From positions 37,069,001-37,133,000 of the forward strand of contig NC_080573.1 in the NCBI RefSeq assembly GCF_029962835.1: a stretch of DNA of 64,000 nt, written 5' to 3'. The notes beneath the pieces are model-generated. The model saw nothing but the letters and a program-made list of their open reading frames with translations, searched no databases and had not been told where the DNA came from. The translations under genes were made by a program, and so were the position numbers. The stretch comes from Magnolia sinica (taxonomy: Eukaryota > Streptophyta > Magnoliopsida > Magnoliales > Magnoliaceae). This document shows positions 17,756 to 55,900 of the stretch, piece by piece; position 1 is the stretch's first letter; the number at the start of each line of letters is the position of its first letter.

Positions 17756-17793
<38 letters not shown>

Positions 17794-21995: not shown

Positions 21996-23560
21996 TGTAA
22001 GCCCCATGTCCTAGTCCATACCGTTCCTTTAGCTTCCGCGGTCCTTCCGGTCGAATTTCGACAACCTTCGCACCATAACTGACATTTGCGTGAAATCCTA
22101 AGCCAGGTCGACGTCGGCTCGATCCAAAACCTATATCTTGGTGACCGCGCCGTCACCGCGGTTCCAACGCTGCAACTTGCACACCGAACCGATACCTAAG
22201 CAAGAAGATGTCGATCTACGTTTATTCTGAAGAAACACCACGCGTTGTGAATTTTGAGAAAATCTCTATGATATATCCCATCAATCAATGTCAAGTACAA
22301 GCCTTACCTCAAGTACAACAACCCATTCCTCTTTTTCTCATTTTCAACCACAACCATCTCTCTTTCCCACCAATTTCAAACTAAGTCATACCTCTCATCA
22401 CCCTTTCTTACAACCACCACTCCACCCATCCCTTCATCCATTATTTCTATCTCTCCCTCTCATTCTCTAGCAATTTTACAAATCTCATGAGAGCTCCAAT
22501 ATCCAAGCTCTCTCCCAAATAACAAGTGTGGCCCACCCTCTCATCTCTCATCCACACCATCAATCTTCCATCAACCTCCATCAAAAAGCAAGCTAAGGAG
22601 TATTGGAGTCTAAGGGAGCAAGGAGGAGGCCTAGAGGTGGGTGATCCACCGTTGATTTTAATTTTTGGGCCCACTTCTTGGTGGGACCCATTTTGATGAA
22701 TGTAACATATCCATGGAGGGCCCATAGTGGCGGGGTCCCTCCACTCCACCGATCTCTCTCTATTTCTCTCACTCACTCCCCCTCTCTCTCTTTTCATTGT
22801 GATGATGTGGATCCTACTAATATGTGTTATATCTACCCCGTCCATCAACATCAGACGGTGTGGCCCACCCTAATGTAGGTAATGATCCACACCATCCACT
22901 GTTTAGATGGACCCAAGACACCTTTATAAATATTATATAATATATATATAATATAATATATATTGTATATATATAATATAAGATATATGTTATATATTTA
23001 TATATATGCAGGTGGGCCACGTACATGTGGGGCCCACCATGATGCTGAGTGCACCCATGCCGTCCAGCGTCTAGAGACGCCGGACGTGAGTAAAGGCGTG
23101 GCTAACAGTGAAGTGTAAACAGGCACGGGTGTGTACAGAAAAAAGAAAAAAAAAGAAGAAAAAGTATAGCTTTTGGGGTAGACTGCTCATGCAGGCCCCA
23201 CCTTGATATATGGGTCCAATCCACGCCGTCCATTCCATTCCCCACGTGTTTTTAGGCGTTGAGTAGAAATTTGACGCTAATCCAATTCTCAGGAGGGCCA
23301 TACCATAGGGAATAGTAAGGTATACCATTAAAACACACCTTGAAGCTTCTATTCGCCCAAAACAGGCCGCATATTAGACTACATTTGGTCGGTCTTGAAC
23401 CGTAGAATCCAATGGCTGAAGTGGATTCATTAGATGTGGGCCCTACAAGGGAAAAACCACAAAATCTCCCTTAAAAAAAAAAAAAAAAACTCAACAGCAG
23501 CGCTGCTGCTGCTGCTACTGACAGCAGGTGCAGGCCGCTCCTGACATGTAACACCAGACT
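21996..23560 (-). mobile_element. Truncated A/B-family LTR copy C, reversed
   Basis: It starts TGTAAGCCCCATGTCCTAG on the plus strand, the complement of the family's right end. It then runs backward through the blocks seen at 17040-18194 in A and 27520-29239 in B: a CT-rich block, a TCCAGCGTC...GACGC block, and the CAGCAGCAGCGCTGCTG block near 23500. The left two thirds of the family are missing. A tail piece resembling the SINE at 786-1007 (GGCTAACAGTGAAGTGT) lies inside it near 23101. Together with the piece at 21709-21995 this is either nesting or a duplicated end. Confidence 0.75.
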
Positions 23561-25162: not shown

Positions 25163-27146
25163 TGTCACGCCCCGAACTCGGAAACCGGGCTCACAAAATT
25201 CCCGATCGCCGAATCCGGCGCCGACAGCCTCCGTAGAACCCCATTTTCGGATCCCGGCACCCATTCACCAGGTTCCGATCCTGGAATACTACAAGGAGGA
25301 TTTCAAGTCATCAGTCTGATTCATAATGAGCATAACAAAAGCATAACCCACAAACAATAACCACAAGAACACCACCACAAAATCCACTAAGATCAAAAAC
25401 TTTTGAGTACAATGCGATAGAAAAGGAAAATACAATGTGATAAAAGAAACAAAACTCCAGAAGCTCGTCTGCACGGTCCAACTACGGCGAGACTATGGCT
25501 GCGTCTGGCGTCACCTGCACGCATCAATCGTGCATAAGCTTATGGAAAGCTTAGAGGGTGGTGTAAGTATGTGCGCAATATAAACGTACTCAAATGCAAG
25601 GTCAGAGTGATGTGGAAACATGGTAATGAGCACATGAATGCAATCAGCCGTACCAAGGCTATGCGGTGCAAGATATGAATGCCATCGGCCAAAAACACGG
25701 CCATGCGATGTGAAATGCAACTCAAGCATGCCAATCCTCAACATGTATCAGTACAGTTCTCATCCAGGATAATCACCGGGGTTCAATACACTCCAAATGG
25801 CACTGTCGCTCTCCTAGCCGCAGATCCAAATGAGCGTAAGAAACCTCACTATCCGCCCGACCAATAGTCACTGCCAATACCTATCCGGCACGTCGAAACC
25901 TGACCCATTCGGAGCTGGTCAAACTCAACCTAGTATTGCCCCCTACCCTCGGGCGAGTAAGGCCACACTCCTTTCCAACCGACCACGACACGGTGGGAGA
26001 CACGGCCTCCTGGTATTCGGCCCTCATGCGGTCGTATATCCACTCGGTCTCGACGTTGGAGTCATCCTCTGGTACCATCGGGTTTAGGGACTTTCACCCA
26101 GGGACATCTATAGTGCCCGTATGCTAGAACCAAACATTTTCCGGTATCCAACCCAGCCATCCACGATGTGTCTGTGGAGGCTATGGCCCTGATGTCGCTA
26201 GGGCATATAGTAACTACAATCACACAAATGCAAGTGCATGAGTCACACTATCACTCATGCAACAATCCTGTATATACCATGCACTTATATGAGGCAACTC
26301 CGCCTATCGGGGAGCCCTAAACAGTCTATCCAAAGGTGTATGCTATGATCGGTCATCCTCACATCGGCATACATATGATGCGAATGATCATGAATCATGG
26401 ATCTATACTAAACATGTATAAAGAGATGAGCTCTAGGTATAATGGAGATGACCCTATACGGCCTACTTACCATAATTATGGGCCTATCGGTGGGCCTTAG
26501 GGAGAGTTATAATGCGGACATTTAACCAACATTATCGATTCAATGTGGACATCAAACCAACATTGCTCCCAAGGAATGGCCTTCCATAAATCACACATTG
26601 TAATGGGCCTTTTATACATCTAATTGGGCCTTGACCCAAGGACCCAAGTACATCAAATGGGCTACATAACATGAGCCCCATATCTATATCAAGGTGGGCC
26701 TTAATGGGCCTCATAATGTGGGCCTAATACAAATCAAGGTGGGCCTCAACAAGGACCACTAATGCATGAAAATGGGCCTCCATAATGGGCCTTAAATTAT
26801 CTCCACAATAGTTGGGCCGTTGGATGAAACACATACATTATGATGGAGCCCACACTAATAGAGAGTGCGGTTGACAATACTTACCTAAGTGGGGCCCACC
26901 AAAATGCTCATTTTCCACCCAGCTTAAGACCCAACATAATGTTTCTTTTCCACCCAACTAAGGTCCAACACAATGTTTATTTTCTACCCCAACTGTTCAT
27001 AAAATTACGTGGACCAAGGTAGGGCCCATTGTAATATTTATTTGTCACCCAACCGTTCAAAGGGTCTTATGGTACTGGGGTAGGGCCCACTGGACTGGGG
27101 AGCTGTGTACACAGCCAGGGAAGCCCATGGTAATGCATGTTTATAA

Positions 27147-27194
<48 letters not shown>

Positions 27195-29497
27195 TATTAT
27201 AATAACTATTATTATATTCACATGGACAGGGGGTCCACTGGGAGGTGGTCCCCAAATCCAGTCCACTCATTATGTGGGTCCCATCTAGCTAACGGTCCAG
27301 CCCAGGTTTCAACAACATCCAAAACTCAGGTAGGCCCCACCAACTAATTTTATATATTTAGGCATGTCTTCCCAGGATTTTAAATGATGTGACTCACCGG
27401 AGTTCCATATACAGCTAAATTTTGGGGTGGACGGTGGAACTGTGGGGACCCATCAAATTGACGGTTTGGATGGGAAAAATGCATCAAGGTGGGGCCCACA
27501 GCTGGGGCCGTGAGCCCCAGCCAGTCCGTCCGCTCGTCACTCAGCAGCAGCGCTGCTGCTGCTTTTTAAAAAAAAAAAAAATTTATTATTATATATTTTT
27601 TTTGTTTTGGGGTCCACCGAGATGTGATTCACAATCCAGCCCATTCATTGTGTGTGTCCCACAATTTTAAGGGTCCAAATCAAGTTTCACTTGCATCCAA
27701 AACTCAGGTAGGCCCCACCAACGATTTTATATGTTTTAGGCATGTCTTCACATGATTTTAAATGGTATGGCCCGCCTGAGGTCCGTTTATGGCTGATTTT
27801 TGGAGTGGACGTATGGGCTGAGGGGACCTATCAAATGGACGGTGTTGATGGTTGAAAACACCAAGGTGGGGCCCACAGCTGGGGCCGTGAGCCCCAGCAC
27901 TTCCGTCCGTCAGCGGCCACCATGGTGACGCTGCTGCTGCCTCCCTTTGTCCCTTTTTTTTTTTTTTTTAAAAAATAATTTTTTTGTGGATTTTCTATTG
28001 TAGGGCCCACATCAGTCCGATCTGACCCAGCCATAGGATTCTACGACTCATGATCGACGAAATGAGACCAATATGCAATGTATTGTTGGCGAATGGAAGA
28101 GTCAAAGTGGGTTTCAATGGTGATACGTCTATCCCTTACGGTACGGCCCGCTTGAGAACTGGATTGGTTCCAAATTTTAGCTCAACGTCTAAAATGATCC
28201 AAGGAAGAGGATAGACGGATTGGATCAAATATCTGAATCAAGGTGGGGCCTATGTGAATGGTCCACCCTACAAGTAGCTTTTTCCCTTCCTCTTTTTTTT
28301 TTTTTTTTTTTTTGCTAGTACACATCCACGTTAGTGCACATGCCTCACTTGCCAACGTCCAGCGTCCCCTGGACGCTGGACGACACACTTAAACACATTG
28401 CTATGGTGGGTCCCACGTAGATGTGGCCCACCATCATATATGCATCTAATATATATTATATTATATATATGATACATATTATATTATATATATGTATTAT
28501 ATAAAATATAACATATATGTATATACATATATATATCTTTAAAAAAATGCATTGGGCCATCCAAACAATGGATGGTGTGGATCATCACCTGTAATGGAGT
28601 GGGCCACACCGTCTGATGTAGATGGACGGGGTAGATGTAACACATATTGGTGGGATCCACACCATTGTAGAGAAAGAGAGAAAGAGAGAGATAGAGGGAG
28701 GTATACGGTGAGATAGAGGAACCCCGCCACTATGGGCCCTCTTGATTTAAATCACATACATCCAAATGGGTCCCACCAACAAGTGGGCCCTAAAATTTAA
28801 ATTAATGAAAAATCACCCACCTTATCTTCCTTCTTCTTGGTCTCTTAGACTCCAATGCCCCTCAGCTTCAACTTTGATGGAGGATGATGGACGCTTGATG
28901 GTGAGGATGAGAGATGGAAGGGTGTAGATGGATGATGGAAGGTGGACCACACTTGAGAGGGAGAGGAGGCTTGGACGTTTGGGGCTTGGGGTTGCTTGGA
29001 GAGATATGAGAAAATGAGAGAGAAAATGAGAGGATGGGAGTGATATGAGGTGATGGAGTGATGGGTGTAATTAATGGGGCATGGGTTTGTTTGAAAAGTG
29101 AGTAAAGGAGGGATGGGTGAAGAGAGAGAGAGAGTTGACTTTGTGAAGAGAGAGGTATGGGTTGTTGTACTTGAGATAAGGTTGCATTTAATGATGATTG
29201 ATGGGACTTATTGTGTAGAGATTCCCTCGAAATCCGCAACGCGCGGTGTTTCTTCGGAATAAACGCTGATCGGCATCTTCTTACCTGAGTATCGGTTCGG
29301 TGCGCAAGTCACGGCGTTGGAACCGCGGCGACGACGCGATCGTCAAGACATAAGTTTCAGATCGAGCCGACGTCGGTGCGCGGGACCTGGCTTAGGATCG
29401 TGCGCAAACACCGAATTCGGTGCGAAGGTTGCCGAAATTTGACCGGAAGGACCGCGGAAGCCAACGGAATGGTACGGATTAGGACACGGGTCTTACA
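25163..29497 (+). mobile_element. Very long solo-LTR-like element B, 4.3 kb
   Basis: It starts TGTCACGCCCCGAACTCGG and ends GGGTCTTACA. An exact 5-bp duplication GCCGG (25158-25162 and 29498-29502) flanks it within element D. Head, middle and tail match element A block by block, for example the 'GTGCATAAGCTTAT' block and the 'TATCCACTCGGTCTCGACGT' block. It lacks most of A's degenerate array. Two copies of a GGGGCCGTGAGCCCCAG-bearing unit (about 27480-27550 and 27860-27910) show internal duplication. It inserted after element D. No coding region is seen. Confidence 0.8.
27149..27191. repeat. (TA)n microsatellite
   Basis: About 21 TA units followed by TTA-rich sequence, inside element B. Confidence 0.9.
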
Positions 29498-32037
29498 GCC
29501 GGTCGGTATGAAAACTCAGCCTGACCTAGATCCATGGTCAGTGAGCTTAAGTCCGACCTTTCGTGGTATTTGGCCCACCAGAAGTGCTTCGTTGGATCGA
29601 GAGAGGCTTACTTTGGTTATAACCTAAGTATACCTTTGCCCTGGGGTTATTTTCATCAAAGATAGGCCTATTTATAGTCCTTAAACCCTAGCTCTCTTTT
29701 CCATACGAATCTTCTCTAACCCTAGCTTGGAAAGAGAGTAGGAAAAGAGAGAAAAAGTGAGAGAGAAGTTTGGTGAATCATCTTAGATTCTTTCCGGTTC
29801 TTCTTCATCCTTGAACCTTCACTTTGAATCGTTATTCTGACGATTCTGAGTTCATCTTGGGGTAAGTTAACCTAACCCTAATCTGTGTTAGAGCTTAGAT
29901 TAGTCTTAGTATTGTTGTATCTCATTTCTATCCTTGTTTTAGGGTATTCTATCGCCGTTGACGAAGACAACTCGTCTAAATCAGTTCGGTGTTTCTTTTC
30001 TGGCTTAAGGTGCGGACTTTAAGTGTATAGGTTATGGTTTTCAAGGCTTTCAATGCCAGTTAATGATTTATTCTTGTTATGGATGAGATTTCACATGCCA
30101 AATGTTGTGTTTATGTTGCGTTCCTGATTTGCATGTATTATATTGAGATTTGTGTATTCTATGTGTATGTATAAAGTACCGTATACGTATAAAATATGCA
30201 CTTGTGTTTGCCATGATTATTTGTCATGTATGTATGCTAGATGTATGTGCGACAACTCCTTGGTGAAAGGAATTGTCCAAATGCTTGTATTTCAAAATGC
30301 GTCATGTGTGTTGTTTTATGTATTCTAAGTGTTTGTAGAAATGCCTGAATGATCTAAAGTGTAACTCATTACACTACTTGTGGGCGTTGAGAAGTGATTC
30401 TCAACACTCCTATTGATGTGTATAATTTCCTCCATGTTAGTTACATTCCTTGTTATTTAATTTCAAGCATTGCTTATGCTTTCATTTATGTTAAGTTGAT
30501 ATTCTTCAAATGCTTGAGTACCACATGATTGAAGTTGTTGTTCTATTACTATTCTACATTTAATGCGAATATCTGTCGTAGTGTAATGTGTTTGGGACTA
30601 TGAATAGTCCAGGAAATCGGTAGTCTGCCTTAAGGATTGTGGCTGAGATTGCTTTCGCCACGTAGGACGTATTAGACGAACACGAGTCGTATTAGAGTTG
30701 TCGGCAGTGGTTTGGCCATGCGGAGTGTTTGCGCACTCTATGTCGTTCAACTCAAAATGCGCTCGTGCCAGTCGAATTCGTCAAGTAACCCGATTGTCCG
30801 ATGTATGTTCACCATATATGGACGCTACTGCTTGAATCTAGGGTACCAGACTTACCAGTGAAATCCTATTAACCTTGGTACCTTGATCCGCAAAGACTCA
30901 TGAGCCGGACGTAGTGGTATAGGACACCATGGTCGTGCTGTCGGCCTACGCTGGGGTGACGAGCCTCCCCATAGTGACCAGTGAGCAACTGAACTCGTGA
31001 GCCGATTATGGTGGTATGGGACACTATATTCGTGCTGTCGGCCTACATTGATTGGTGACGAGCCCTTTGTAGTGACCTCGAGCATGCCTGGATACCGCAT
31101 TGAGGTGACGAGCCTTGGTGTAGTAACGAAGGTATGAAAGGCGTGCATTGATTGGTGATGAGCCCTTTGCTACGACCTACAACCATATGATTATATGAGA
31201 AGCCTAGGATTGACGACCCTAGATTGGATCACTGTTTGGATGGTGATATGAGGAAGGTACTTTAGCTTCCCAATCCTGCTGTATGAAAAGGACTAATAAC
31301 AACTTGGTAATCATATCCATGCATCGCATTTGCATGTGCTTTGTAGATGTGGCGCACTTTGAGGTGGTGTCATGCGTAACGTAAGATGAAGACGCTGAGG
31401 GTGTACGCGTGAGGGCACGCATCATTTTGCATACATCCTTGCATTAACAAGAGTACTTAGGATTTATTTAATTGTTCTACTTTATCATTACTGCTTGATT
31501 AAACTGATAACATGTTAACCAGTGCCTTATTGTTCCACTGAGTTGATCACTCACTCCCACGTTCTGGGGCGGTGTTAAACACCCACCAGACTGTCTTAGG
31601 TTCTGATGTTACAGATGTGGATGCGACTTCTGAGGCAGAGCGGGAGATGGATGGTGATGAGGCTGCTTTCTCTTATATGCAGTTTTCAGATGGGTTCTAG
31701 CGAGCTTGTTCTGATGCGCAGGACCCTGGGATTATTTTTGAGATTTAAATGATGTAATCTTGATACTTATAATTTTAATAATAACACTTTCATCACGACC
31801 TGGTTTGTGTATGTACTTCAGGGATTCACACTTGTACACATGTAATTCTATAAGTCTTCCGCTTGCTTTATTCACTTATCCTTGAATTATATGTGTTTTG
31901 GCTTAATCTATTCCATGTTTTATGCACTAATACAGTCAACATACATCCATTATTAAATATGTTGCATAAGTGATGTTTTGGAACTTGGGAGCTGAGTTAT
32001 GCTCGACCCCCGAATTTCAGGGCGTTACAGGACCACT

Positions 32038-32367: not shown

Positions 32368-33892
32368 ACAGGAACTTCATGTGCGCGGGGTCACAGGATA
32401 TTTGAGTCCCTTAAGGCCTATTTGGGCAAATGGATTACGGTGTATTAAAGGGTATTAGGTGAGATAGGATTGTCAAATCCCACTGACCCTACCCCCCTGC
32501 GTGTTTGGGTGGCGTCGACTGTAGGAACTCGATCGTCCTTCGCTGTATTCACTGGAGATATGGAGGGATTGCGAAATCCCTCCTTGGATTCGATGTCGGC
32601 TCTCTCACATCGAGCCCATCCACAGCGATTTCACAGGCCATCGTATGGACAACCAATGGGATTTCTCAATCCCTAGCATTGGCGGGAGAGAGGGTATGGC
32701 GGGAGAGATGATAGGGCAGAGGTTTTTGGCTCGAAATCACTACTCTATAGATGGATGCATGTTCGTCACCCGAGCTTGCTGGGTAGAGAGGTATTGCAAT
32801 TATCCGCTACCATGGAAGTGGCTGTGAGGTAGGTGTTCCCAAAATCGATGTCCAGATTCTGTATGATCTTGTAAGAGGGAGGGATTAGGTAGAACGTGCA
32901 TCCTATAGCTTGATCTCCCACAAATACTCACCAGCCAACAGGGCTTCTGAGATCATTCTCTCAGGGTTTTCTCCCATTTATTTCGTATTTGAATGGTGAG
33001 GCCCCAATAGGCGCACGTTGTGGGTGATCAGGTATTGAGGATGAAAATTGTCTATATGGCCCTCTCACGAAAGTGGTTTGTGTATACAATCTTAATCACT
33101 TCTTTTCTTGGTTTGCTGGGTAGAGCTGTGGCTGGCGGGATTTCGACGTTGTGGTATTCTCCTACTTCGCAATCCAGGTTTTTCATAATTTTCATCTTCA
33201 ATGATTAAAGTGTGATGATGTATTGATTTTTTCCTTATCCTGTTTATCTATTTCCTAAGGTTTTCAAATAATGGATGGTATTTAGGCAACCATTTTTAGG
33301 ATGGTATTATCCCTTTTCATAATACCATAAAAGACATGCCATTAGTAATTTCATTCACTTTGGGGCAAATTTCTCTGGGCAAATCTGGGTATACAAATCC
33401 CCTTGGGTTTCAATTTGTTTGCATATGCTGAAGAGTTTAACTGTTCAGTTTCATGTTTACAAAAATCGATTAGCCTATAATTGAAATTTGCATAGTATTT
33501 TACATGGTAACAGTCTTTCTACCTGTAGATCAGCTTCTGTAGTTGGTGTACGTTATTCGTATAAAATGATTTCATACGTTGCGGGTTCACCAATGCCCAG
33601 ATCTGTTTGGATGTGTTTATATTTATAGGCTGCATAGGGCATTTCAAACTACTTTATTCCTTCTCTCATTTTGCTTGGAAGAAACTGTTATTCAGCATTC
33701 ATCACTGTTTATACATTCTCATAAAAATGACCAGAAATATTGCTGGATCAGTGTGTGTGCATAATTTTTGTGCATGTGTGGACCTAAAATATCATGGTTC
33801 ACTGAATCATAGGCCTGATTTTTATAAAATGAACAACTACATGTCACTTAATCATAGGCCCCATCAGTTTTCTGATTTTTTTGGTGAGAGCA

Positions 33893-34210
33893 TCTGGCTG
33901 TGAATGGGATTAATGCCCTTATTACAATCTAATGGTACACTGCTGCAACTGCTCTAATGAAAGGGCCCACCCAGAATATCCAATGTTCACCCCAAGCATG
34001 GCCCTTGTTGAAGATGATTAACTTTCAAGACTCCTGGCTGAGGTTGATGCCAGATCCAGTGATGGGGATTGTAGCCAAGTGCACCAGGAACACTGCAATC
34101 CCAATTGGAAGTGGTGCAAGGATAGGCATATGAGAATCTATGCCATTTCTGTTGGCATCAGTAGCAGAGAAGACAGTGTAAACAAGCACAAAGGTGCCAA
34201 TAACCTCTGC
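33893..34210 (-). pseudogene. PIP1-type aquaporin C-terminal fragment
   Basis: Read on the minus strand, this gives [19 protein letters not shown], then [31 protein letters not shown], a damaged stretch, [15 protein letters not shown] and VYH-stop-IVIRA. These are the conserved helix 4 to C-terminus segments of plasma-membrane PIP aquaporins; the ending resembles PIP1. The second NPA motif is broken by an extra base, the segment after it is scrambled, and a CAG has become TAG. The block reads from the NPA region into HAWGEHW with no intron. As I recall, plant PIP genes have an intron near there, so a processed origin is possible. It lies inside the 10-kb Harbinger element and is either a captured or an inserted host fragment. 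Confidence 0.85.
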
Positions 34211-34254
34211 ACATCAACCATCTCCCTTGCATTATCCATGGTTGATGTGCAGAG
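34205..34254. repeat. Perfect 17-bp inverted repeat
   Basis: CTCTGCACATCAACCAT (34205-34221) and its exact complement ATGGTTGATGTGCAGAG (34238-34254) are 16 bases apart. It sits at the upstream break of the aquaporin fragment. It may be a template-switch scar rather than a functional hairpin. Confidence 0.8.
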
Positions 34255-34576
34255 CAGCCATAAAAATTTTGCATGAGATCTTCTTGAGTTCACACACTTA
34301 TTTGCTGGAAAAACACCATCTTGAAATTGCTTATCACAAATGAAGATCCTTTGGTAGCAGTACATAGATACAACAAATGTCAGGACTAGATTATCCTATT
34401 ACCAAGGACCTTTGTGACAATTTTAATGGACTGTTAGACAAAACTTGACAAACTTGTTACATTGAGTCACTAATCTCTTTGCTCCCTCTGTTTTAGTAAT
34501 TGCATTCATTTCTTTATTAATCTATCTGTATTGAAGAATTCATGGAAGATGAGAATTAAATCTTTTAACACTATGC

Positions 34577-34805
34577 TAGCATGTCTTAGAGAAATCTATA
34601 GTGAAACCATCAGGGTTGAGGGCTTTGTCCCCATTCATTGAAAACCCAGCCTCTTTAATCTCCTCCCTATTGGAAGCCCTTTCTAAACAGTTGGCTTTCT
34701 CAAACAGGATGGACTAGAAATCTAGGTCTTTGATGATGGGTCTCAAGAAATCTTCCTCAGAATAAGGATCATGGTAGAAATTGACAAACTACCTTGTTCA
34801 CCTCC
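34577..34805 (-). mobile_element. L1-type LINE reverse-transcriptase fragment
   Basis: The minus strand reads FYHDPYSEEDF, then further on REEIKEAGFSMNGDKALNPDG and FTIDFSKTC. This is the 'FSMNGDKAPGPDGFT' signature at the start of plant L1 reverse transcriptases. One internal stop codon follows the KDLDF segment. Only about 75 residues remain, so it is a dead fragment inside the Harbinger element. Confidence 0.75.
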
Positions 34806-34809
34806 CTCT

Positions 34810-37280
34810 GGCCCCCAAGATTTGCACTATATATATATTTTTTTGGCCCCCAAGATTTTAGAATGAGTGTATGTAAAGCATGTAATCTAAATAAGGAATG
34901 TACCTTGTCATGTCAAGGAAAAACCTTCTACATTTCCCTTTATAGACATTGATTCCCTGTATCCAAACATGGCCTTAAGGTTACTTGGGATTGGGTTCCA
35001 TTTTTGAAGAAAAAACATGCAAACATCTTAATACTTAGAGAAGAATGATGCAAAATAGCAGTATGATCCAATTTTCGAGCTGGAACCTGGTGGAAATGCT
35101 GCAATAGGACCTAGAATTTCAAACTGGAACCTGATGGAAATGCAGCAGTAGGATCCAAATTGAAAAAATGGATCCTAGTGGAAACCTTGAAAGCTATGAT
35201 ATTAAACTCCATACCATTGTGACATTATTAAGCTCTGGAAAACCAAGTCTCATAAATATTAGCAATAGTATAACAGTTTTTTTTTTTTTTTAATGGTCAA
35301 ATACACACACACACACACTCACATCTATGCACCAGATGGGTTGTAGAACCCATTGATGGCCTATGGTCTAATTGAAGCTATGCCCCCTGATAGAGTGGAA
35401 TGGAGGAATAGGATTCACGTAGCTGACTTTAGATGATGATGATGAGCTCCAACATCAATTGTCACCTTGTCAACTATTATACGTATTTCTATCAGAGGCA
35501 ATAATGGTAAGTCAAGATGGCATCGTTTGTTGTTGGTTGGGCATCAAAAACTCAAATGAAGCTGAAGCTAGAGATTTGTGTAACTGTGTTATTGCCTCTG
35601 CCTCTTCATGTTGTCCTTCTCGACTGAGGTGATTGCTGATGGGGATTCTGCTAATGTATTCAAGTGGGCTTTCTTCACCATTGTGGAGATTTTCTGCTAA
35701 AAATCCATATAATAGTTTGTGCATTCTCTGAATGCATGCATGCCTGGGTTTACTTCCAATTAAATACTATTGTTTCCCTTTTATAGTTTGAAACTCATGC
35801 ACAGATTTAGACCATTGAAGATAGTTGGATCCATTTAATTTGACCAAAGTTACTTGGACCTGAATATCTGATGGATTAATATCCATAACCTTACTGTCAA
35901 CTATTTCCTGCATAATAGAATGGATAAATTAATTTGATACAATAAACATGCAACTTATGGTGGAAGTCCTCTCGAAAAACTTCCAATAGAAACGAGCTTT
36001 CAATGGGCTGCCAGAAACCCCCATTTGAAAATGGGTTGTTGATGAGATGCTGGAAGCACTCGATCGAAAAAACTGGTTTGTTTTTTGTGTTTCTCAGTAT
36101 GGTTATTCATTTAAAAAAAATAAAATTGGACTACAGGTCTAGCTAGCTCTTTCAAATGATGGCGGTATGATTCTTTTGCTTTGGGTACCAATGAAATGTC
36201 AATGCAAAACAGATATAATGACCTTAACATCACATTTTGCTTGTTTTGTTGTTGTTGCTGCTGTTGTTTATTTGAATTTCTTCTTCTTGTTGAAAAGTGT
36301 TGTTTCTTTATACCTTTGATTTCATGGATATGATGATGAAATGAACATGCAGGACAGAGAAGATTTTCTTGTTTGTTCGTTTATTCTTTGCTAGACAAAC
36401 AATAGTGCAGTGTCACCATTTGGTTGAGAAGGCCCTGAATAGATGACCTTTTGTTGAAGATTGTGTTCTGGTTAATAAACACTCGGCCATGTTTGCATGT
36501 ACAAGTGAATTGAATTGCTATGTTTCCTAATATTTCATAATGATGGAAAAGTCTTCCAACTCTTATTAGGACCCTTTCAAGTCCTAACTTTAGAATTAAT
36601 GAATCTATACATTCCGTTATTTCAACTTTATTTTTATAGCTGATTGCAACTCAAATCTAGGGGGCATCCAAACACATTACAATTGCACAATGCTGCTTTT
36701 TTCTTTTTTCTTTTAGTTCTGCTTTTTTTTCTTTGACAATGGTATTGCCATTTGTTTTATGTGGGTCCAAAGTCGACTTGGCAGAAAACCCATTTCATAT
36801 TGTCCTCATTGAGAGTTCCAACTGAGTTTCTTTTGAGTTTTACTGGATTCATCCATTTTTTTCCGTATATTTTCTAGATTACACTCTTATCTCCTATAAT
36901 TTTTAATGATTTATAGTTTATTAATAATTTCTTTTAATCTAAAAATGATATCTAAATCTCTGATTTTTCTTCTCAAGTCTTAAGTTATGCTACCCAACTT
37001 GGTGGACATTATTAGTATGCTCTAAATAGATCCATGAGACATTCTATAACTCAGATTAGTTAGTTGATTTGTCAGCCTCATTTCACTCCACTGAAGTATT
37101 TTTTGGGCGCATTTGGGTGACTCTCAAATTGTATTTGCAATTAGTTCCAAATTCTGATTTCCTTGGCTTTCAAATAGGGGTTCTAGGCTTGAAATTTATA
37201 GTTGGGTTTGGAAGAAATGTTACCTGATCACATACTAGGTTGTTGACAAGGTATATCAACTTTATTTTCTACTTTAGGAG
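34810..37280. other. 5' non-transposase part of the Harbinger element
   Basis: No recognised gene. It holds a (CA)n run at 35303-35320, and a possible small MITE near 36485-36690 with a CCATGTTTGCATG left end and a GCATCCAAACAC right part. The polypyrimidine track and AG just before 37281 suggest that the transposase leader contains an intron. A 70-residue minus-strand frame at 35512-35724 has a protein-like composition, but I recognise no family. Confidence 0.4.
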
Positions 37281-38653
37281 ATGGATAGCGATGATGAAGA
37301 TGAAGTAGCCGAGACCATGGTGGTACAAGCTGTGGCTGCATGCATAGCTGCTGTTGGTGAATATTGTCGTCACTATATGTTAAGAGAACCGGCGCGTCAA
37401 GGGGATGACGAGAGGGCAAGGTTTATAAACTCAATCGTGCATGCAAGTGACAATAATTATTTTACGCAGTTGAAGATGAGACAGCAATGTTTCTTCTCAT
37501 TATGTAAAGTACTGCGCGACAGAATGTACCTACGCGATACTCGACACATTAGTCTTGAGGAGTAAGTAGTGATCTTCCTCCATACCATAAGACATAACGT
37601 GCGTAATCGTGTGATAGGACACAGATTCATACATTTAGGCGAAACGGTAAGTCGTCACTTTCTTCGTGTCATTAATGCGATAGTGTCCTTGTACCCTAAT
37701 TTTGTGAAGCAGGCGGGTACTGAGACCCCCTTGGAGATTCAATCGAATCCTTACTGGCAAACATATTTTCAGGTAACATTCTCGTCAGGGGATGCCATTT
37801 TCTATTTTGATTTTGGAAGAAGCTAATATTTGTCATATTACTTATATGTGAAATTCGATGTCATCGACGATAGGATTGTGTTGGTGCAATAGATGGGACG
37901 CATATTCCCGCTCATGTGGAATCATCACAACATCCAAGCTTTCGTAACCGAAAGGGTATCGTGTCTCAGAATGTACTTGCTGCTTGTTCTTTTAACATGA
38001 CATTCTTATACGTGCTAGCTGGATGGGAGGGTTCCGCTTCGGATGCACGGGTCCTACATAACACGCTGACCTGAAGTGATGATCCACTAATTGTACCAAA
38101 CGGTAATTGTTTCTTTAGAAATAACATACAACATTCTTCACCCTAAACATCATTCTCAACACACTAACCCCCATGACCCTAACTTTTACGCAATGTAGGA
38201 AAATATTTCGTCGTCGACGCAAGATACGCTCACTCACATGGGTTCATGACGCCTTATCGCGGTGTTCAATATCACTTGCACGAATATCGAACCAGGAGAG
38301 CACCCATGAACAAGAAGAAGCTGTTCAATTACCGACACGCACAATTGCGAAACGCAGTTGAACGTTGTTTTGGAGTAATGAAGGCACGGTTTCCTATCTT
38401 GAAGACAACTGCGCAATATCAATTTGAAACTCAGGTGAAGATTGTAGTAGCATATTGTACACTACATAATTTCATTGGCCAAGAAGACGAAACTGGACAA
38501 GATTTGAAGGATGCTGGTATAACTGTGGGGGATGCAGAGAGCAATCCTACACCAAATGAGGTATTAACAAGGGATGAGCGCCAGTGGCTAGTGCATGCGA
38601 CACAACAAGAGAAATCGGCGTGGATCGATGTTCGAGATCAGATTACGGAGTGA
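37281..38653 (+). pseudogene. PIF/Harbinger transposase (HARBI1-type), two stops
   Basis: This DDE transposase would cut the element's ends and insert it at TTA/TAA sites. Three exons splice cleanly: 37281-37772, 37874-38102 and 38199-38653, giving 391 residues, the normal family length. The N-terminal part has FFSLCKVLRDRMYLRDTRHI and VSRHFLRVINAIV, the helix-turn-helix region. The catalytic triad is visible as D in GAIDGTHIP, D in GSASDARVLHNTL and E in NAVERCFGVMK. Two in-frame stop codons interrupt it: TAA at 37563-37565, where relatives have Gln, and TGA at 38072-38074. Everything else is in frame, so it decayed recently. The Myb partner gene follows on the same strand. Confidence 0.9.
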
Positions 38654-38735
38654 GTGTGGACCGACGTGCAAACAAATAGTAGGACTACATAGGGTCCTTT
38701 TATTTTAAAGATACATTAACTGATGTGATTGGCAA

Positions 38736-38769
<34 letters not shown>

Positions 38770-38960
38770 GAGAGAAGACAGTCGAGATGAAGTCTGTCAT
38801 TTTTTGACGTACATATTTGCTCGATACGATTAATTGCTCTTTCAGTAATACATAGTTGCTAGTATAATATTGAACTTCATTATTGTGTAAGTTGGTTTTT
38901 AATTATTTGTTAATCCACGCAATAGGTGACATGTCTGACTATTTTATAAGAGCTACATAA

Positions 38961-40112
38961 ACTCCGACACAGTCCCCAATTAGAACTCTAGTTCTACCGA
39001 CAAGACGCTCTCCACGTGAGAAGACTGTTAAATCGCTTGCTGAGCTGCTATCATGCACGGCAAAAATCAAATGGACCCGGGCCATGGATCAAATATTATT
39101 TGACGCTTTGCTTAAACAGATATCTCTAGGCCGAAAAGCAAATAACGGTTTTAAGAATGAGGTATATAATGAAGCCGCTGCAAAGGTGTCGTGGAAGACG
39201 CAAATTACGGTGAACTGGCAAAACATTCAAAACCGAATGCGGTATCACAAGCGTGAGTACAACGATCTGAAGGACATGCTGGCCGCAAGTGGTTTTGGTT
39301 GGGACAGCGAGCGTGTGGTAGTAACCGCACCCGACGAGGTCTGAGATGAGTACCTGAAGGTAATCATTGCGTACAACCCCTTATATTGCAAATCAGGATT
39401 GTATCAAATATGTTTACTAAACTAATATCTTTCTTGATTGTAGTCGCATCCAAGAGCAGAAAGGTTACGCGGAAAGCAGATTGAGCGAATGGACGATTTA
39501 GCGACGATTGTTGGTTCGGACCATGCAACAGGCCGCTACGCTCAGGGAAGCAGAAACATGGCTGCGTCTTCCTCTCATATTTAGTGAGATTTGAATGACG
39601 CTTGGACTAAGCTGGACGATGAGATGGATGTACCTATCGATCTTTTCGAGGATCATCTCGAATATTCACCCGGGAATTATGACTTTTCAAATGATTCTCA
39701 TCAGGCAACTGAAAATCGTTCATTCCACAGCACTCCCAACCGAGCGATTGACTCTGAGAGTAGTCGTGGTGGGAGTGCGTCTACGAAACGGATGCGTGCT
39801 GCTCATCCCTGTGATGCCCTTGCCAGTTCCCTGGATGGTTTGGCAGAGGCAATGCGAAACTTTGGACTTGGGAAAGAGATGAACCGCACTAGTAAAGTGC
39901 TAGATGTCCTCGAAGAGGTTCAGGGACTATCCAACACAGAGTTTATAGAGGATGGTCAGATGCTGACTCAGGATAAGCAGCTAGCATCTTTTTTCGTAAG
40001 TCTTTACAGAGAGCGGAGGGCCGAGTGGTTGAAAAAAACTTTGTCTGATATGAATGGAGGGATTGGTGGTCTTCTTGATGGATTAAAATACGGTTATTAT
40101 GCATCGAAATAA
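38961..40112 (+). pseudogene. Harbinger Myb/SANT-like accessory protein, broken
   Basis: PIF/Harbinger elements encode a second protein with a Myb/SANT-like domain that helps the transposase bind DNA and enter the nucleus. Here exon 1 carries KIKWTRAMDQILFDALLKQ, NWQNIQNRMRYHKREYNDL and GFGWDSERVVVTAPDEV, a good match to the Myb/SANT-like plant family. An intron is likely at 39359-39441 (GTAATC...TGTAG), and exon 2 begins SHPRAERLRGKQIERMDDLA. Two problems are seen: TGA for the expected Trp codon after APDEV (39342-39344), and a stop plus frame change near 39583-39590. The 173-residue tail (39591-40112) is open, acidic and Ser-rich, ending in a conserved-looking helical part. The start is uncertain. 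Confidence 0.82.
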
Positions 40113-40365
40113 GAATTCCTATTTGGTGGTTTTGTAATAACTATATACTGATTTGTGGGGGAACAGTTTTTTTTTTGGGGGATGTATGTTTATCCGTGTT
40201 AAATGTTGGTTGGATACCTAGCCATTATACCATTCTACTTGCGTTTACATATTTATGATGTTGCTTAAATGCCATTTTATCAATCTATCATCTTTACATG
40301 CTTTCATTCTATGAATATTATAACATGCATTTTCTCTTATCCTCGTCATATTTATGTGAATGCAG

Positions 40366-40737
40366 ATGGATAACAGTAAATACTATGTTGTAATCAATGG
40401 ACGACGATCAGGGATATATATATCCTAGGATGAGGTACGACTGCATGTGGAGGGATTTGGCAATGCCAGACATCGATCATTCAAAACATTCCAAGATGCG
40501 ACCGCATGGTGGAATGCAAACTATGCAAGTTCAAGTAGTGGATTAATTAACAGGCGATGTGGTGAGGTACATTCACCTATAGATGCTCGGAATTCTATCT
40601 GAGAAATTACAGGATCCATGGTGTGCAAGAGTAAACAAACAGATGATGCCACCCTGAAAGTCGGGGAAGTGGTGGCAGCATTAGTAGTTGCAATCTTGGT
40701 TTTATTCTTCATATTATATATAATAATTAAGCTGTAG
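40366..40737 (+). pseudogene. RNase H1 hybrid-binding-like domain plus membrane tail
   Basis: A single frame of 124 codons starts at an ATG directly after a good splice acceptor (TGTGAATGCAG). Residues 6-50 read KYYVVINGRRSGIYIS, then DEVRLHVEGFGNARHRSFKTF and TAWWNANY. This fits the small RNase H1 N-terminal hybrid-binding fold (viroplasmin-like, also in caulimovirus P6), which binds RNA/DNA hybrids. The C-terminus has about 20 hydrophobic residues (from VVAALVVAILVLFF to IIIKL), a likely tail anchor. Two in-frame stops occur: TAG at 40426-40428, in the slot of the conserved Trp, and TGA at 40600-40602. The sequence reads through otherwise. No nuclease domain follows. A further exon reading AIDVCLEGNDHINFDTGEF may lie near 41059. 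Its role in the transposon is unknown. Confidence 0.7.
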
Positions 40738-40739
40738 TT

Positions 40740-42452
40740 ATGGATGGTGTTGTACCACTTACTGTTTAAATTTTGGTAGACAGTAGATAACTTATCCTCG
40801 AACACTTTGATATGGCATGTATAACTGCATCTTAACTTAAAATCTCATTATATGTAGATTTGAATGTAAATTGTGATAGAATTGCATGCATTCACCATTT
40901 CTTTTATCCATATCTCCCTTAATCTCCATTAGTATGAAGTTCGTTATAAATGAAGTCCAGCCTCTTGAACCTAGTTGAACTAAGGGCCAGGTATGACTAC
41001 TTGAAACCCGGATTGGATTACTGTATCATTTCCTAAGTAACGTGTTTTTGTGTGTAGGCGATAGATGTTTGCTTAGAGGGCAACGACCACATCAATTTTG
41101 ACACAGGTGAATTTAACAATGAGTAGTAATGCCCGTTGCAAATAGGCAATCGTCTCCTTTTGTGTAGTCATAATGTACTTACATCAGTCGAGCATGAACG
41201 GGTAAATCTCAGCATTTTGGTAGAAGTATGTGAAAGTACATTTGACTAAGAGTATGGTGTTCTCTTCCTTGCATTATCAATACGGACAGGTACTGAGTCT
41301 ACACATTGGCATCATGAGTTTTTGTTTAGTACCTATTTATATTACATTCATTTTCGTATTAAACTCTTTACAGGTTCACCTAAGGGTTTTTATCCATACC
41401 TACAGTATGCAATGGTTTAGAAGACAATCCAGTTGCCAATGAGACTGCCCCTCCTTATTATGATGTTAGACATGTGAATTTGTTGTTGTTTTGGTGCTGA
41501 GGAACGGGTTTCATTTAGATGTTCCCGATTCTATCCTTTTTTTTTAAATGTTTATATTTTATTTTGTTTCTACCTTTTATTTATTTTGTTCGCCGTTTGC
41601 ATGCATCGTAGACCATTCAATTTCTGTTTTATTTTGAACTGTACATTCTGTGTGCAAGTCTGTTTGATTATCTTATGTGGTTGGCAGATTTCATATGAAA
41701 GATGTTTTCATACAACGGTTTAGTTTACTGATAATGTGTTGATTGGGTGGAGAATCTAAGCCGTTGAATTGGTAGAATAACCCATTGAAATCACCTGGTG
41801 AAGAAGCTGAAACAATATATTCATTAGAAGGGCCACATCGATTACCCAAAAGTTTCGATGGTGTAGATAACGTGATCAATGGATCATCCAGTTTTCTCAT
41901 TTTATTTTAGGGGAGCATTTGATACTTGAGACTTTTCTCATTGTACAATGCTCGAGCACTAATGTTTTGGTTTTCGGTTTGTATGAGTGGGCCTTTGGTT
42001 CAGTGATCTAAAGCATTTAAACTATGGGGTCCACCATGAATAGATTATACACCAAAGATCTGAGCCATAAAATTTATGGATCCACCATGATATCCACCGT
42101 TTTGGATCCGTGATATCCACCGTCTTGGACTTTTTATCATGTAGTGCATGGGCCACCCAAAGTGTAGCCCGTGATATCCACCGTTCTAGAACCGTTGAAC
42201 AGTGGCTTTATTTGTACAAAACTGAAATTTGAAGAATAGTGTACAATCTCGCAAACATCATTCTAGTGGGCATAACGGTTTCTAGAAGCAATTCCTGAGT
42301 TTTCCAAACAGCATGGGTGTTGTGGGATGGTTGCAATACCACAACACCCAAATAGAACCGTAACTGGTCATGGGATTGGCGTCTACACCCAAACCATCCG
42401 ACCATCCACTGACAGCATTAAATGCGTCTGACAAGCTAATTTTATACACCTC
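40740..42452. other. 3' part of the Harbinger element
   Basis: Beyond the third reading frame I see no firm gene. A possible exon (splice acceptor TGTGTAG, then 22 codons to a stop) lies at about 41059-41127. From about 42000 the text resembles the dispersed 'ATATCCACCG' repeat language. The right inverted end begins at 42453. Confidence 0.4.
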
Positions 42453-42488
42453 AATACACCGTAATCCATTTGCCCAAACAGGCCCTTA

Positions 42489-44528
42489 GGGGTCGTTTGG
42501 CACTGTGGATTGGAGGAGATTGACAATCCCCAGGTTGTTTAGCACCATAAAGTAATTAGGGGTTGGCAATCCCCTCAATCTAGGGGTTTGCAATCCAAGA
42601 TCCAACCTTAAATTGCCTTTTTAAAACAGCTTAACGGTAGGAAATCCAACCGTTTGAAGATTTTCTTTAAAAACCTATATTCGCATACAACCAAGTAAAG
42701 TCTCTCTCATTCATCTTCAAAAAAAAACTGTGACCATTACCACAACTCTCCGGTACCGCGAAAGTTGCTACTATATGGCCGCTAGAGTGCAGAAGTTCTG
42801 CCGGAAGGTTGGTGCGTCGTTGCTAATATTGAAGGAGACAGACCTGTTTTCGTTGAAGGAGATAGAACAATAAAAGGTTGGTTTATATTTTAATGTTTTC
42901 TTTAAATGAATTGCAATTTATTATTTGGATGGCCTACTAAAAAGGTTATGCAAAATCTGTTCCGACTATGTGATGACTTGTCAAAATTTATCCGTATGAC
43001 CAAAAATTATACTAATTTAGGCTTAACATGGGCCACACCAAATTAAACGGTGAATTGAGGGACAAGAATACTTTATTTATATGTCCCACCATAATGGTTA
43101 TATGGACGGTATAATCCAGCCATTATATGGCCCATTAAAATTTAAGAGTTGAGAAAAAAATTTAGGAGTAAATATCATTCAAGTGGGTCATATGAACGAA
43201 AACAAATTCAATCATTATAATTACTTTTACACACTGTTTCTAACTGTGTGATCAACTTGAACTATCAATGGCCCTAAAATTTAGGTCCTAAGCCTAAAAT
43301 AGGATAACTCATATTATAGTCGGAGTGGATTTCCAACTATCATTAAGGAACCAGAAGAACTTTGTTTTTGGCAATAAAAATGAAGTTGGCAACATCCCTG
43401 TAAAGCCACCAGCGTTATTCATGCAGCCCTGTGCATTCTTTAAAATACAATGTAGGGCCACCATCATTCATGCATATTATCCCCTCCGTCCATCTATTTT
43501 ATCAGATACTTTTAGTGGGTTTGCCTAAAAATAAAGCATATAAAAAAACCAAGTGAACCACACCATTGAAAAAAGTGTTAATTGAACATCTACTATTGAA
43601 AAGTTACTGGGGGCCATAGAAGTTTTAGATCAAGTTGATAATTGTGTTTTCACTTCATCTATGTCCATGTGATCTTAAGAACAGGTTGGATGACAAATAA
43701 ACATCATTGGAGGCCTTGTAAAGGTTTCAACCATGGAAATTAATATTTCCACTGTTTCCTGTGGTATGTTCCACTTGAGCTTTGTATATGCTTCAATTTT
43801 TGGCTCAACTCCTAAAATTATATGGAAAAAAAGGATGAACGGCATGGATAAACCACACGCATTGATGGTGGGCCCAACGGAGTTTACTCTGGTTTAAAAG
43901 GAAACCCTGAGGTTTAAAAGGAAAACCACTAACAACTATTAAATTACGAACACACCCTCGAGTTTCCCATCTAGTTGCATAGAGAGAACCTCGACCGTCC
44001 ATTTAGCTTTGTTAGTTTGGCAATTTGGATTTTTATAACTTTAAAAATATTTCATATTTAATAGTCTTTATCATTTTATTTATTAACGTGGGTGCACATA
44101 TGTTTTGTAATTTTTATAGTGTGTATTTAGACCACCCGAAATTAGATAAGATATGTTTATCTTAACACATGACAATGGTGAAATTTAGTGGGCCCACTTT
44201 TCTGGCCCACCAGAAGTTTGGAAGTACTTCTTTTTTTTCCAATGTGTATATTTTGATGGGCTTGTTATCATAATTATTTATGTTGTAGTATATTTTAATC
44301 ACTTTGGGTATTTTAAATAATTTACTTGGTTTCCTTGAATATTCATGCAAATATACCACAAAATTTGAGGGGATTTCAAATCCACACTCCCAAACACAAA
44401 TTTTACAATCCAGGGGGGTTCCAAATCCAAGGTGTCAAACAGAAACAAGGGGTTTTGAATCCAGGGGGTTGGCAATCCAAGGGGTTCCGAATCCAGGGGG
44501 TTTCAAATCCACGCTCCCAAACAGGCCC
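42489..44528. mobile_element. Non-autonomous Harbinger-like element, 2.04 kb
   Basis: The left end GGGGTCGTTTGGCACTGTGG faces the complement of the right end, GGGCCTGTTTGGGAGCGTGG, and both continue with ATT. TTA flanks it at 42486-42488 and 44529-44531; the left TTA is shared with the 10-kb element. Sub-terminal repeats of AATCCAGGGGG and GGCAATCC type are clustered at 44370-44515 and near 42530-42600. No transposase is present. A fold-back MITE copy lies inside at about 43440-43880. Confidence 0.78.
43440..43880. mobile_element. M1 family MITE copy inside the 2-kb element
   Basis: Contains the family blocks in order: a 'CCGTCCATCTATTTTATCAG' block, a 'CCACACCATTGAAAA' block, the 'TTGGATGACAAATAAACATC' block, the 'CCTGTGGTATGTTCCACTTG' block and a 'GAACGGCATGGATAAACC' end. 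The same order appears at 1-400 and 62230-62690. The limits are approximate. Confidence 0.6.
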
Positions 44529-52915: not shown

Positions 52916-55900
52916 TTTCAAAGAACCCAGCTAAGGCTACTTGTGCGAGTGAGATTAGAATCCATCAATCCAATCCACAGGCATGGACATGCATTCAATC
53001 CTACCTGTTCATCAGGCAACTCTGTGGTGAATCTACAATGGCCAAAAACAGGATGATCAGCCCATCAGGCGAGCCACATACACATGGACACTTGAAGAAA
53101 GATTGATTAGTAGTCCACATTCAACACATCAGCTCACCCAACCTGAAAGGTGGGGCCTTATTTCTCAGCCAGTTTAATCACACAGTCAGACCCACCCAAT
53201 GGACAGCCAGATCTAACTCACGTGCCAGATGGCACGTACGCCCCACTAGTAGGATAAGAATCCTACTTGCTCAAGTACACTTACACAATTCTCAACATGG
53301 AATCATACCCAACATGTTTCATCCATATATTCAGCATCAAAGTAAGTAAAAATAATAGAGAAAAAAGAAAGAAAAGAACAAGGAAGACTCATCGTCAGAG
53401 GTCGTTTTCTTACCATCCAAGGAAGGTGGGCAATGGAATCTTTGATGGGGTGATGCCATGTCTATCCCCCATGAAAATGTCTAAGAAGATGTCCCTCCAT
53501 CAGCACATTATATTAGTTAAAAATGGTCATGTCTTGATAAAAATGAGTCTGTCTTCTTTTGCTCCTGCCTACTTGGACACATACAATCCTGTCCACCAAA
53601 AAAAGAACAGATACAACCCTGCAACACCAACCAACCCTATGAAGATGATCAAAATCAAGCACCAACAATGGAAAAGGATCTTGTTGTATTTAAGGAAATC
53701 ATAACAGATTAAGGATATATTATGTTAATATGAATGCAAATCACGCGCCGTTTGATTGTTTTACATAGGCGGTCCACTGAGTGCAGATCCAACCGCCCAT
53801 GTGAACCGATCAAAAGACTGCATCAGCACTTTCTTTTATGCCACACATGCGCATCTGGGATTAGCAGGTAATAAAGCAAGAGAAAAGAGCTGTAGATACA
53901 ACAATGATAATGCGGCAATGTTTGTATTATCATGACCGGATGGTGTTGTCAGGTCCATGTTTACGTCGGGCACATGCAGTGAATATGGAGAAGATCTAAT
54001 GGAACCCACATTTCCTAATCTTTTAATAAGAACTGGTCCATATGCACTGGCTGATTGGCAACAAAGGCGAGTCCCCAACTGTGAAAAGAATCAGAAGATA
54101 AATGAATCCCCATGAGCCATGTCGGCTTGGTGGACCCCGCAATGAAAATGGCATCCAAAATTCAATTGGTGGTCCAGAAGCTTTATTTGAATGTGCGCGG
54201 GACCAATGCCCACTTAGAAAAAAGTTTGATAAGAAACAGAAAGGGATGGTTTGAGGAGAGGAAAGCCACAGAATGGAGATATCGAGACTGTTCATCCGTT
54301 GGGCCCCACTTTTAATGTTCCCTAGATTAAAAAATAGGACAATCTGCTTCTCAGGTAGGTCACGCTTATAAGAATGCCACATGTGAATACATCCACACCA
54401 ATATGTTTTCAATAGAAAAATGTCTTAATAGAATCCAAATGTATCCATAATGGGGAGTCTACCGTATATAATATCCAAAGCATTCATACATAATAAATGC
54501 ATCAAAATTTTTTGCTATTGTGGTGTCGGTGTTGGGTCAATGTCTAAACAACAACCAAAGAGAAAATATAATATCTCACCATTTCCTGCATTTTTTTTTT
54601 AAGGTAGGCCATGTTCGGTTGCAGACTATTGAATTAAATTGCAATAATCAGTTTGATATAGAGAGACCACATTGTAGTTACCTAGTAATTTGTATTATTT
54701 AGTCTTCAAATTGTGGTTACAGAATAAAATTGCAATTTGGAGCTTAGCTAATGCTGATTTGGTCGTTCCAGCTTTATTGAACTAAATATCGCAATTGAAT
54801 TAGATAGTGCATCGAAAAGTTGACATAAGAATGTGTTCCGGTTGGTTTTATAGAGTAAGGATGTTAACAGCTGTTTTGAAAGTGTTTGGTGAAAGAGTCG
54901 CTTTCAGATAGCATGATTGCTGCTTATGACAGAGCGAAAAGTTTCCATCACAGTGAAAATGGAAAAAAAAAAAAAAAAAAATCATGTAACAAGGTATCAA
55001 CAAAAGAGAGGATTGCTACTTGCAGGTGCCCATCTGCCAAGTGCCAAACAGAAGTGGTGGCCCACATGCCAAAATGGCAAAATCTAGGCCGCCAACAGGC
55101 GGGCCCCATGGTTCATGTGCCCTAACTCCAAAATTAGGCCAGTCCACTTGCAAGGTCTGCAGCGCTTTTCCAGAGAAGTGGATATTTAGTGAAGGATAGC
55201 TATTGTCCACATTCAATGTAGATGGCCAGCCCACCAAATAAGTGGGCAGGTCTGAATTATGTACTAGTGCATGCTCCTTGTGGGGCCCACCTGATAAATG
55301 GCAAAGATTTTACACACTTGGGCATTGGTGTATGGCACTGACAGATGCGCATCTGCAAGCAATTTCTTTGAAAAATAAGCAATGATTGCGAAAAGAAAAT
55401 GCTCATATATCATGAAACAGCTACAGTATTTTTACAGTTGCTCAATTCAGCAAGAACACCAAATAAAGAATCGCTGTGATGGGCAATTTCATCTATCCAA
55501 ACAGACTCAATGCGTTGCCGAACGAGGAGTTTGGCAACATCATGAACAGTTACACCACAAATTCTGAACCAATTTGAAAACAATCATAGGCTATCGTTCT
55601 GTGGATATGTACACATTACAATCTTGCCTCTGGATCCATCAGGATATCTTGGCCAGTGAAGTGGACATATCACCATGGAACGAGTGTTTCAGATGTTCCA
55701 ATCAGAACAGCAGCGGCATCAAGCTTTTGCAGGATTTGGGGAAGTGTTTAGTTGAATTTTCCAAAGGAGGGATATGAGCATGAACGGTACAGATTATCTG
55801 GGGCTAACCTGTAAATAAAAAAAAAAAGAACTTGAATTAATCGAGCGGTCCACACTTACATCCCGAAAAAATGTAAGAAAAAAATCAGATCAAACCAAAG

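Follow-up and report, generated by a model that had tools for sequence, protein, structure and literature searches.

A third reading frame with a hybrid-binding domain and a hydrophobic tail behind the two standard genes of a decayed Magnolia PIF/Harbinger transposon

Does a decayed PIF/Harbinger transposon in the 64-kb stretch of Magnolia sinica DNA that we analysed (the window, for short) preserve the remains of a third gene? PIF/Harbinger elements and Tourist MITEs are widespread DNA transposons. According to the available text of PMC4482050, most candidate autonomous PIF/Harbinger elements have two genes, and their target duplication is TWA. The first-pass annotation of this DNA had described one frame of 124 codons, here called ORF3, on the coding strand of such a transposon, and had proposed that this lineage gained a third protein. 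We treat that proposal as a hypothesis, whose main rival is the capture of ORF3 as a passenger. If it is true, a third gene with a membrane-anchored, nucleic-acid-binding domain would add a novel type of accessory protein to PIF/Harbinger, and ORF3 could be tested as a means of self-protection from silencing. If ORF3 is a passenger, it would be an example of gene capture and would show how a dead copy can resemble a new system.

The Harbinger context on which the question depends proved sound. A DDE transposase of the DDE_Tnp_4/HARBI1 type and a second gene with a Myb/SANT domain are both present upstream of ORF3 on the same strand, the order on the plus strand being transposase, then Myb/SANT gene, then ORF3 (Table 1). 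The transposase consists of three exons and two introns, with the phase kept across the GT/AG introns. A search of a protein database returned numerous relatives of the transposase, with 926 of 2800 candidates at E <= 0.001. The closest are from Magnolia sinica, the best of them matching at 67% over 99% of the length, while the Magnolia sinica model P0010 matches at 78% over 56%. Among the best 120 of the 926 relatives, the Magnolia sinica models P0010, P0011 and P0073 contain both a transposase and a Myb part. In a comparison of a Magnolia transposase with viral contigs, none of 16 stretches was confirmed.

Table 1. Coordinates of the genes, candidate element ends and aquaporin fragment (positions in the window)
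Feature	Position	Strand	Details
Candidate left terminal inverted repeat	32414..32455	+	AGGCCTATTTGGGCAAATGG...; TTA at 32411-32413 just before
Aquaporin fragment (MIP, PF00230)	33938-34258	-	E 2.6e-23, model positions 119-219
Rival left end, other terminal family	37105..37164	+	GGGCGCATTTGGGTG...; TTT flanks
Transposase exon 1	37281..37772	+	In-frame stop at codon 95; reading frame, phase and GT/AG sites from sequence, and homology
Transposase exon 2	37874..38102	+	Start of DDE_Tnp_4 (PF13359), E 5.4e-9; stop at codon 231 of joined frame
Transposase exon 3	38199..38653	+	End of DDE_Tnp_4 (PF13359), E 1.6e-15
Myb/SANT exon 1	38931..39359	+	Myb_DNA-bind_3 (PF12776), E 3.3e-19; stops at codons 10 and 138
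Myb/SANT exon 2	39444..40112	+	Stops at codons 190 and 191 of joined frame; TAA end
ORF3 (third frame)	40366..40737	+	RNase H1 N-terminal/hybrid-binding domain, residues 5-48; C-terminal hydrophobic segment, residues 103-121
Candidate right terminal inverted repeat	42444..42485	-	GGGCCTGTTTGGGCAAATGG... on the minus strand; TTA at 42486-42488 after

The copy has decayed in all three genes, with in-frame stops at 2 of 391 transposase codons, 4 of 365 Myb codons and 2 of 123 ORF3 codons. Since the homologous stretches of the transposase and of the Myb gene sit in the frames expected from their exons, and since the domain and tail of ORF3 lie in one frame, no frameshift is apparent. Although the numbers are small and ORF3 is known from one dead copy, this spread of stops fits a copy in which all three genes were intact on arrival.

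By gene order and intron number only, the element fits group A of PIF/Harbinger (A5 or A6). The Medicago elements of group A (A5 and A6) covered by the available text of PMC2213677 have, like the element found here, a transposase followed by a Myb-type orf1, and most of the tabulated A5/A6 core elements have two transposase introns, as here. Group A termini are also of the GG.../TTTGG kind seen in the window (PMC2213677). Two differences stand beside these likenesses in the same source: the Medicago A5/A6 elements have two genes, whereas the Magnolia copy has a third frame after orf1, and the terminus GGGCCTGTTTGG is nearer to that of MtPH-E, in which no orf1 was found, than to the A6 consensus (PMC2213677).

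Translation of ORF3 agreed with the frame as first described, giving 123 residues and a final TAG, with internal stops at codon 21 (TAG) and codon 79 (TGA), and with the motifs GRRSGIY, GF, AR, SFKTF and AWW. The Myb stop, on the same strand, lies 253 bp upstream of the frame. TGTGAATGCAG directly precedes its ATG, and the splice acceptor after which the frame was said to open is thus an acceptor-like site, by consensus alone and without an established donor. The openness of the frame is ordinary (1218 of 18180 sampled 123-codon stretches of the window have two stops or fewer).

The homology to the hybrid-binding domain of RNase H1, which the first-pass annotation had read from the motifs, was borne out by a Pfam profile search. 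The N-terminal part of ORF3 matches PF01693 over the whole model (positions 1-44 of 44) with 48.7 bits and E 9.1e-13, against a curated gathering cut-off of 21 bits, and this is the only match at E <= 0.5 in a six-frame Pfam scan of 40113-42485. The NCBIfam family RNaseH_Halikb matches residues 1-56 with E 9.9e-11 and 42 bits, far under the cut-off of 320 for that full-length family. Three RNase H1 hybrid-binding domains were matched among the sequences of the PDB (1qhk, E 8.3e-5; 3bsu, 2.3e-4; 6vrd, 3.4e-3); a fourth match, to a capsid protein (E 0.55), was set aside as chance. Using tblastn, we obtained 10 plasmid records with E values from 2e-3 to 0.8, eight of them annotated as RNase H, and one unannotated phage record (E 8e-3).

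We aligned ORF3 with the domains from seven of these 11 bacterial and phage records, to which it is 33-44% identical. As had been claimed, the first internal stop falls on the conserved Trp of PF01693: the column of codon 21 holds W in all seven aligned domains, as well as in the PDB alignments shown, and in this copy the residue is replaced by the stop. This lowers the claim that the domain would work in this copy and leaves the homology untouched. In human RNase H1, this Trp and a Phe-Lys-Lys stretch are nucleic-acid contacts. Because ORF3 reads H-R-S-F where the domain consensus has Y-K-S-F, the aromatic and basic pattern is partly kept. The YY/FY-V, G-I-Y, GF and SF columns are common to ORF3 and the N-terminal domain of RNase H1 (PF01693; 1qhk, 3bsu); RNase H1, however, has a catalytic domain, whereas ORF3 has a membrane-type tail in its place, in addition to the stop at the Trp. 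No RNase H catalytic domain was detected at E <= 0.5 in the six frames of 40113-42485, and the reading of ORF3 as a fragment of an RNase H1 gene with a catalytic domain in that interval was rejected.

The hydrophobic C-terminal segment reported for ORF3 stands out from its surroundings. The best 19-residue hydropathy mean of the frame is 3.38, in a segment that stops two residues short of the end. Of 568 other frame ends within the window, each open over 45 codons or more, none reaches this value (maximum 2.79), nor does any of the 2470 shuffles that stayed open among 20000 single-nucleotide shuffles of the tail. The first 75 residues contain no second hydrophobic segment, the best hydropathy there being 0.01. 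ORF3 therefore has one hydrophobic segment inside its last 30 residues and none earlier, which, judged from sequence, is the layout of a tail-anchored protein and would predict membrane insertion. A single-sequence AlphaFold model contains a C-terminal helix at residues 94-122, and its blocks from residue 101 on have mean pLDDT values of 91, 97 and 86. Over the whole protein the mean pLDDT is 54.6, and the domain part is poor, with 25 of 44 residues below 50; in a Foldseek search of the PDB with this model, poor as it is over the domain, none of 141 matches reached E <= 0.001.

ORF3 is best read as a tail-anchored, nucleic-acid-binding accessory gene that is dead here. We tentatively regard it as what remains of an accessory gene, the third one in a plant PIF/Harbinger family of the transposase-then-Myb type, a conclusion that falls a little short of probable. 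Passenger capture is possible, though we doubt it: this copy, or a small subfamily, would have taken up a fragment of a host or mobile gene, with hybrid-binding domain and membrane tail, that had no role in transposition. In its favour, ORF3 yielded no protein relatives from a database that includes Magnolia sinica and that gave 926 for the transposase. In one search, with 10 candidates 68-217 aa long, no match reached E <= 1; a second, with 150 candidates about 190-604 aa long, yielded nothing at E <= 10 either. These searches exclude a close annotated relative. Since they needed shared five-residue words and were judged against 5.8 billion sequences, distant hybrid-binding domains were unlikely to pass, and since short dead transposon frames are seldom annotated, the absence of relatives is weak evidence.

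Precomputed Pfam domains place PF01693 in none of the best 120 of the 926 transposase relatives, and when ORF3 was compared directly with the same 120, two weak matches emerged (E 0.29 and 0.51). The three Magnolia sinica models that join transposase and Myb (P0010, P0011 and P0073, all among these 120) do not contain the ORF3 frame. Searches with ORF3 produced 110 stretches of viral contigs and 476 of genome contigs, none of which was confirmed, and no match in PHROGs. Among the matches listed from the open PMC literature (titles and starts of abstracts), none describes a gene with a hybrid-binding domain in a Harbinger element; in that literature the terms 'Harbinger' and 'viroplasmin' co-occur in one paper, in separate contexts, and PMC13317346 does not mention Harbinger.

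Capture also draws on what surrounds the standard genes. The candidate element bounded by the two terminal inverted repeats of Table 1 is 10 kb long, and its left 4.9 kb hold an aquaporin fragment, in the orientation opposite to ORF3, as well as MITE-like termini, so passenger DNA seems to be present. The aquaporin fragment is one continuous frame broken by a stop, that is, a pseudogene piece. Captured gene pieces are usually partial, whereas ORF3 is complete: it has an ATG and a final stop, with the domain near the former and the anchor near the latter, and it lies on the coding strand of the element directly behind the Myb gene; like both standard genes, it has stops and no apparent frameshift. 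These properties argue against capture. A published case from a fungus argues for it: in the available text of PMC4289320, capE of the Pleurotus helitron helpo1.3 is a PF01693 gene described as captured. It resembles ORF3 in being a PF01693 gene in a DNA transposon, but the transposon is a helitron and the host a fungus (PMC4289320).

A further explanation, distinctly improbable in our judgement, is that ORF3 is a separate gene or part of another mobile element beside a truncated Harbinger, whose true right end lay before 40366 or is lost. Which ends belong to the element bears directly on this. As determined by BLAST, the strongest match of the region within the window is an inverted one between 32408-32455 and 42444-42491 (48 bp including flanks, 87.5%, E 2.2e-8). 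There is a TTA on either side, and read in this way the match would delimit an element of 32414-42485 with 42-bp termini that start AGGCC and GGGCC. When the window was scanned with each end, 32414 and 42485 scored 32-33 mutually, with the next match at 17 (44530) and shuffles at 14 or less, so that the only strong partner of the 42485 terminus in the window is 32414, inverted. The left end is nevertheless ambiguous, which favours a neighbouring origin, since 37105 is a rival; its own family offers no matching right end nearer than 51.1 kb. Local alignment of 36500-37290 with the right flank scored 11.7, while 50 shuffles had a mean of 13.2 and a highest score of 16.5. No inverted repeat between the two thus rises above shuffles, which counts against 37105 as partner of a right end there.

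Between 31 and 44 kb, a strict PIF-type right-end pattern has two matches, 34963-34977 and 42474-42488, while the strict left-end pattern failed to pick up either of the candidate left ends (32414 and 37105). A tolerant pattern, which required TWA next to a consensus match of 7 or more out of 9 bases, found the same two right ends over this interval and recovered the left end at 32414. With either pattern, the interval 40113-42480 between the Myb gene and 42485 is free of PIF-type right ends beside TWA. For this reason ORF3 is most likely internal to the element, and the nearest right end downstream of the Myb gene most likely comes after ORF3. For a neighbouring origin it can be said that the right end at 42485 sits 1.7 kb behind ORF3, that the left partner of this end may come from a different copy, and that a right end decayed below 7 of 9 bases or without TWA would escape the search. 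Dropping the TWA rule brought up weak right-type matches at 40493 (7 of 9, inside ORF3), 42359 and 42400. Against it, no frame of 40113-42485 holds another Pfam domain at E <= 0.5, and neither a reverse transcriptase nor a movement protein was found in 32414-37279 and 40113-42485; the nearest retroelement-like match is to copia-gag near 35.8 kb (E 0.025; 14.8 bits, the cut-off being 24.1). We therefore infer that ORF3 probably lies inside one element.

The extent of that element may be read in two ways, either as a 10-kb element with insertions or as a 5-kb element whose left end has been lost, and ORF3 is internal in both layouts if 42485 is the right end. The further PIF-type right end at 34963-34977 consists of CCAAACATGGCC followed by TTA. 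The end at 34974 is to some degree similar to the left end at 32414, scoring 19.5 over 64 bases compared to 38.0 for the 32414/42485 pair under the same scheme with longer flanks, and 32414-34974 could be a separate element holding the aquaporin fragment. On the other side, the TTA at 42486 is followed by GGGGTCGTTTGGCAC (42486-42503), a sequence with 9 of 9 consensus bases that resembles the left terminus of a further PIF-type element.

A chance origin, in which a random frame would resemble the domain and an AT-rich stretch would read as hydrophobic, is negligible and was rejected, for although frames with so few stops are common, the Pfam match, the three RNase H1 sequences of the PDB and a tail hydropathy above all control frame ends and open shuffles speak against it.

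What might an accessory gene of this kind have done? Its intact product would have had 123 residues. The hybrid-binding domain at its N-terminus would lie on the cytosolic or nucleoplasmic side, followed by a polar linker and then by a membrane anchor so close to the C-terminus that hardly any residues come after it; such a tail-anchored protein would most likely reside in the ER or nuclear envelope. Since it has no catalytic domain, it could bind RNA/DNA hybrid, perhaps dsRNA, without cutting it. Whether a translated product would bind nucleic acid at all seems to us evenly balanced. The available text of PMC7657459 reports tight binding of RNA/DNA hybrid and weak binding of dsRNA for the human domain, a preference for dsRNA for the yeast domain, and, for the conserved Drosophila domain alone, binding of hybrid with undetectable dsRNA binding. 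The behaviour of the Drosophila domain counts against a dsRNA role for ORF3.

An ORF3 product might retain at a membrane the R-loops or transcripts of its own element, or dsRNA formed from those transcripts. Duplexes held there could be protected from silencing, or transposition complexes could be kept at the nuclear envelope; because the duplexes at hand would be R-loops and the dsRNA that feeds silencing, anti-silencing or tethering is the most sensible guess. The full proposal, in which a magnoliid PIF/Harbinger lineage carries a tail-anchored hybrid- or dsRNA-binder that holds transcripts or R-loops of its element at the ER or nuclear envelope, shielding the element from RNA-directed silencing or tethering it for transposition, is unlikely as it stands, and a specifically anti-silencing role for ORF3 is quite unlikely.

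Parts of this arrangement have counterparts elsewhere. Accessory genes in DNA transposons, as presented in the available text of PMC12730594, include those of TET/JBP Harbinger elements in rust fungi, of SET-domain HarbingerS in Phytophthora, and of VANDAL (MuDR) elements, which regulate their own silencing. Like ORF3, these are extra genes in DNA transposons, some of them self-regulating; their domains and hosts differ from those of ORF3, and that text makes no mention of a hybrid-binding domain (PMC12730594). In sunflower, Athila LTR retrotransposons have additional ORFs with transmembrane segments (PMC11728184), which makes them, like the element with ORF3, plant mobile elements with a membrane-type protein. 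In Athila, however, the element is a retrotransposon and the helix lies in the middle of the protein, whereas the helix of ORF3 is C-terminal, and a hybrid-binding domain is not mentioned in the available text (PMC11728184).

The caulimovirus protein P6/TAV (viroplasmin) is much longer than ORF3, and we know of no C-terminal anchor in it. It is the namesake of the Pfam family and carries the PF01693 domain, internally at 138-184 rather than N-terminally as in ORF3 (PMC7102451, available text), and works like RNase H1 according to the title of that paper. Other caulimovirus domains were absent at E <= 0.5 from the six frames of 32414-37279 and 40113-42485, and a caulimovirus insertion was rejected for lack of any other virus domain in these two intervals.

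The window also contains other repeats. Termini of a second PIF/Tourist-like family (GGGYGYGTTTGGATG...CAAATTGAATTGCAATTAG), to which the rival left end belongs, occur at 5178, 36486-36680, 37105, 51213 and 54606-54817. Two pairs of these termini could be MITEs of about 200 bp, and in the candidate pair at 36.5 kb the matches are weak, with scores of 18-25 compared to shuffles of up to 16. Long diverged repeats lie at 12268-18419 and 25163-29498, and also at 21709-23543; among the matches listed, their direct copies are about 62-81% identical, and an inverted copy pairs 21996-23488 with 29497-27954 (71% over 1586 columns). When 12200-18500 was scanned in six frames, no Pfam domain reached E <= 0.001. 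Local direct repeats, again among the matches listed, are found at 6188-6502 and 57916-58158, with units of ~104 bp (89-90%) and with two 113-bp copies 130 bp apart (94%), respectively.
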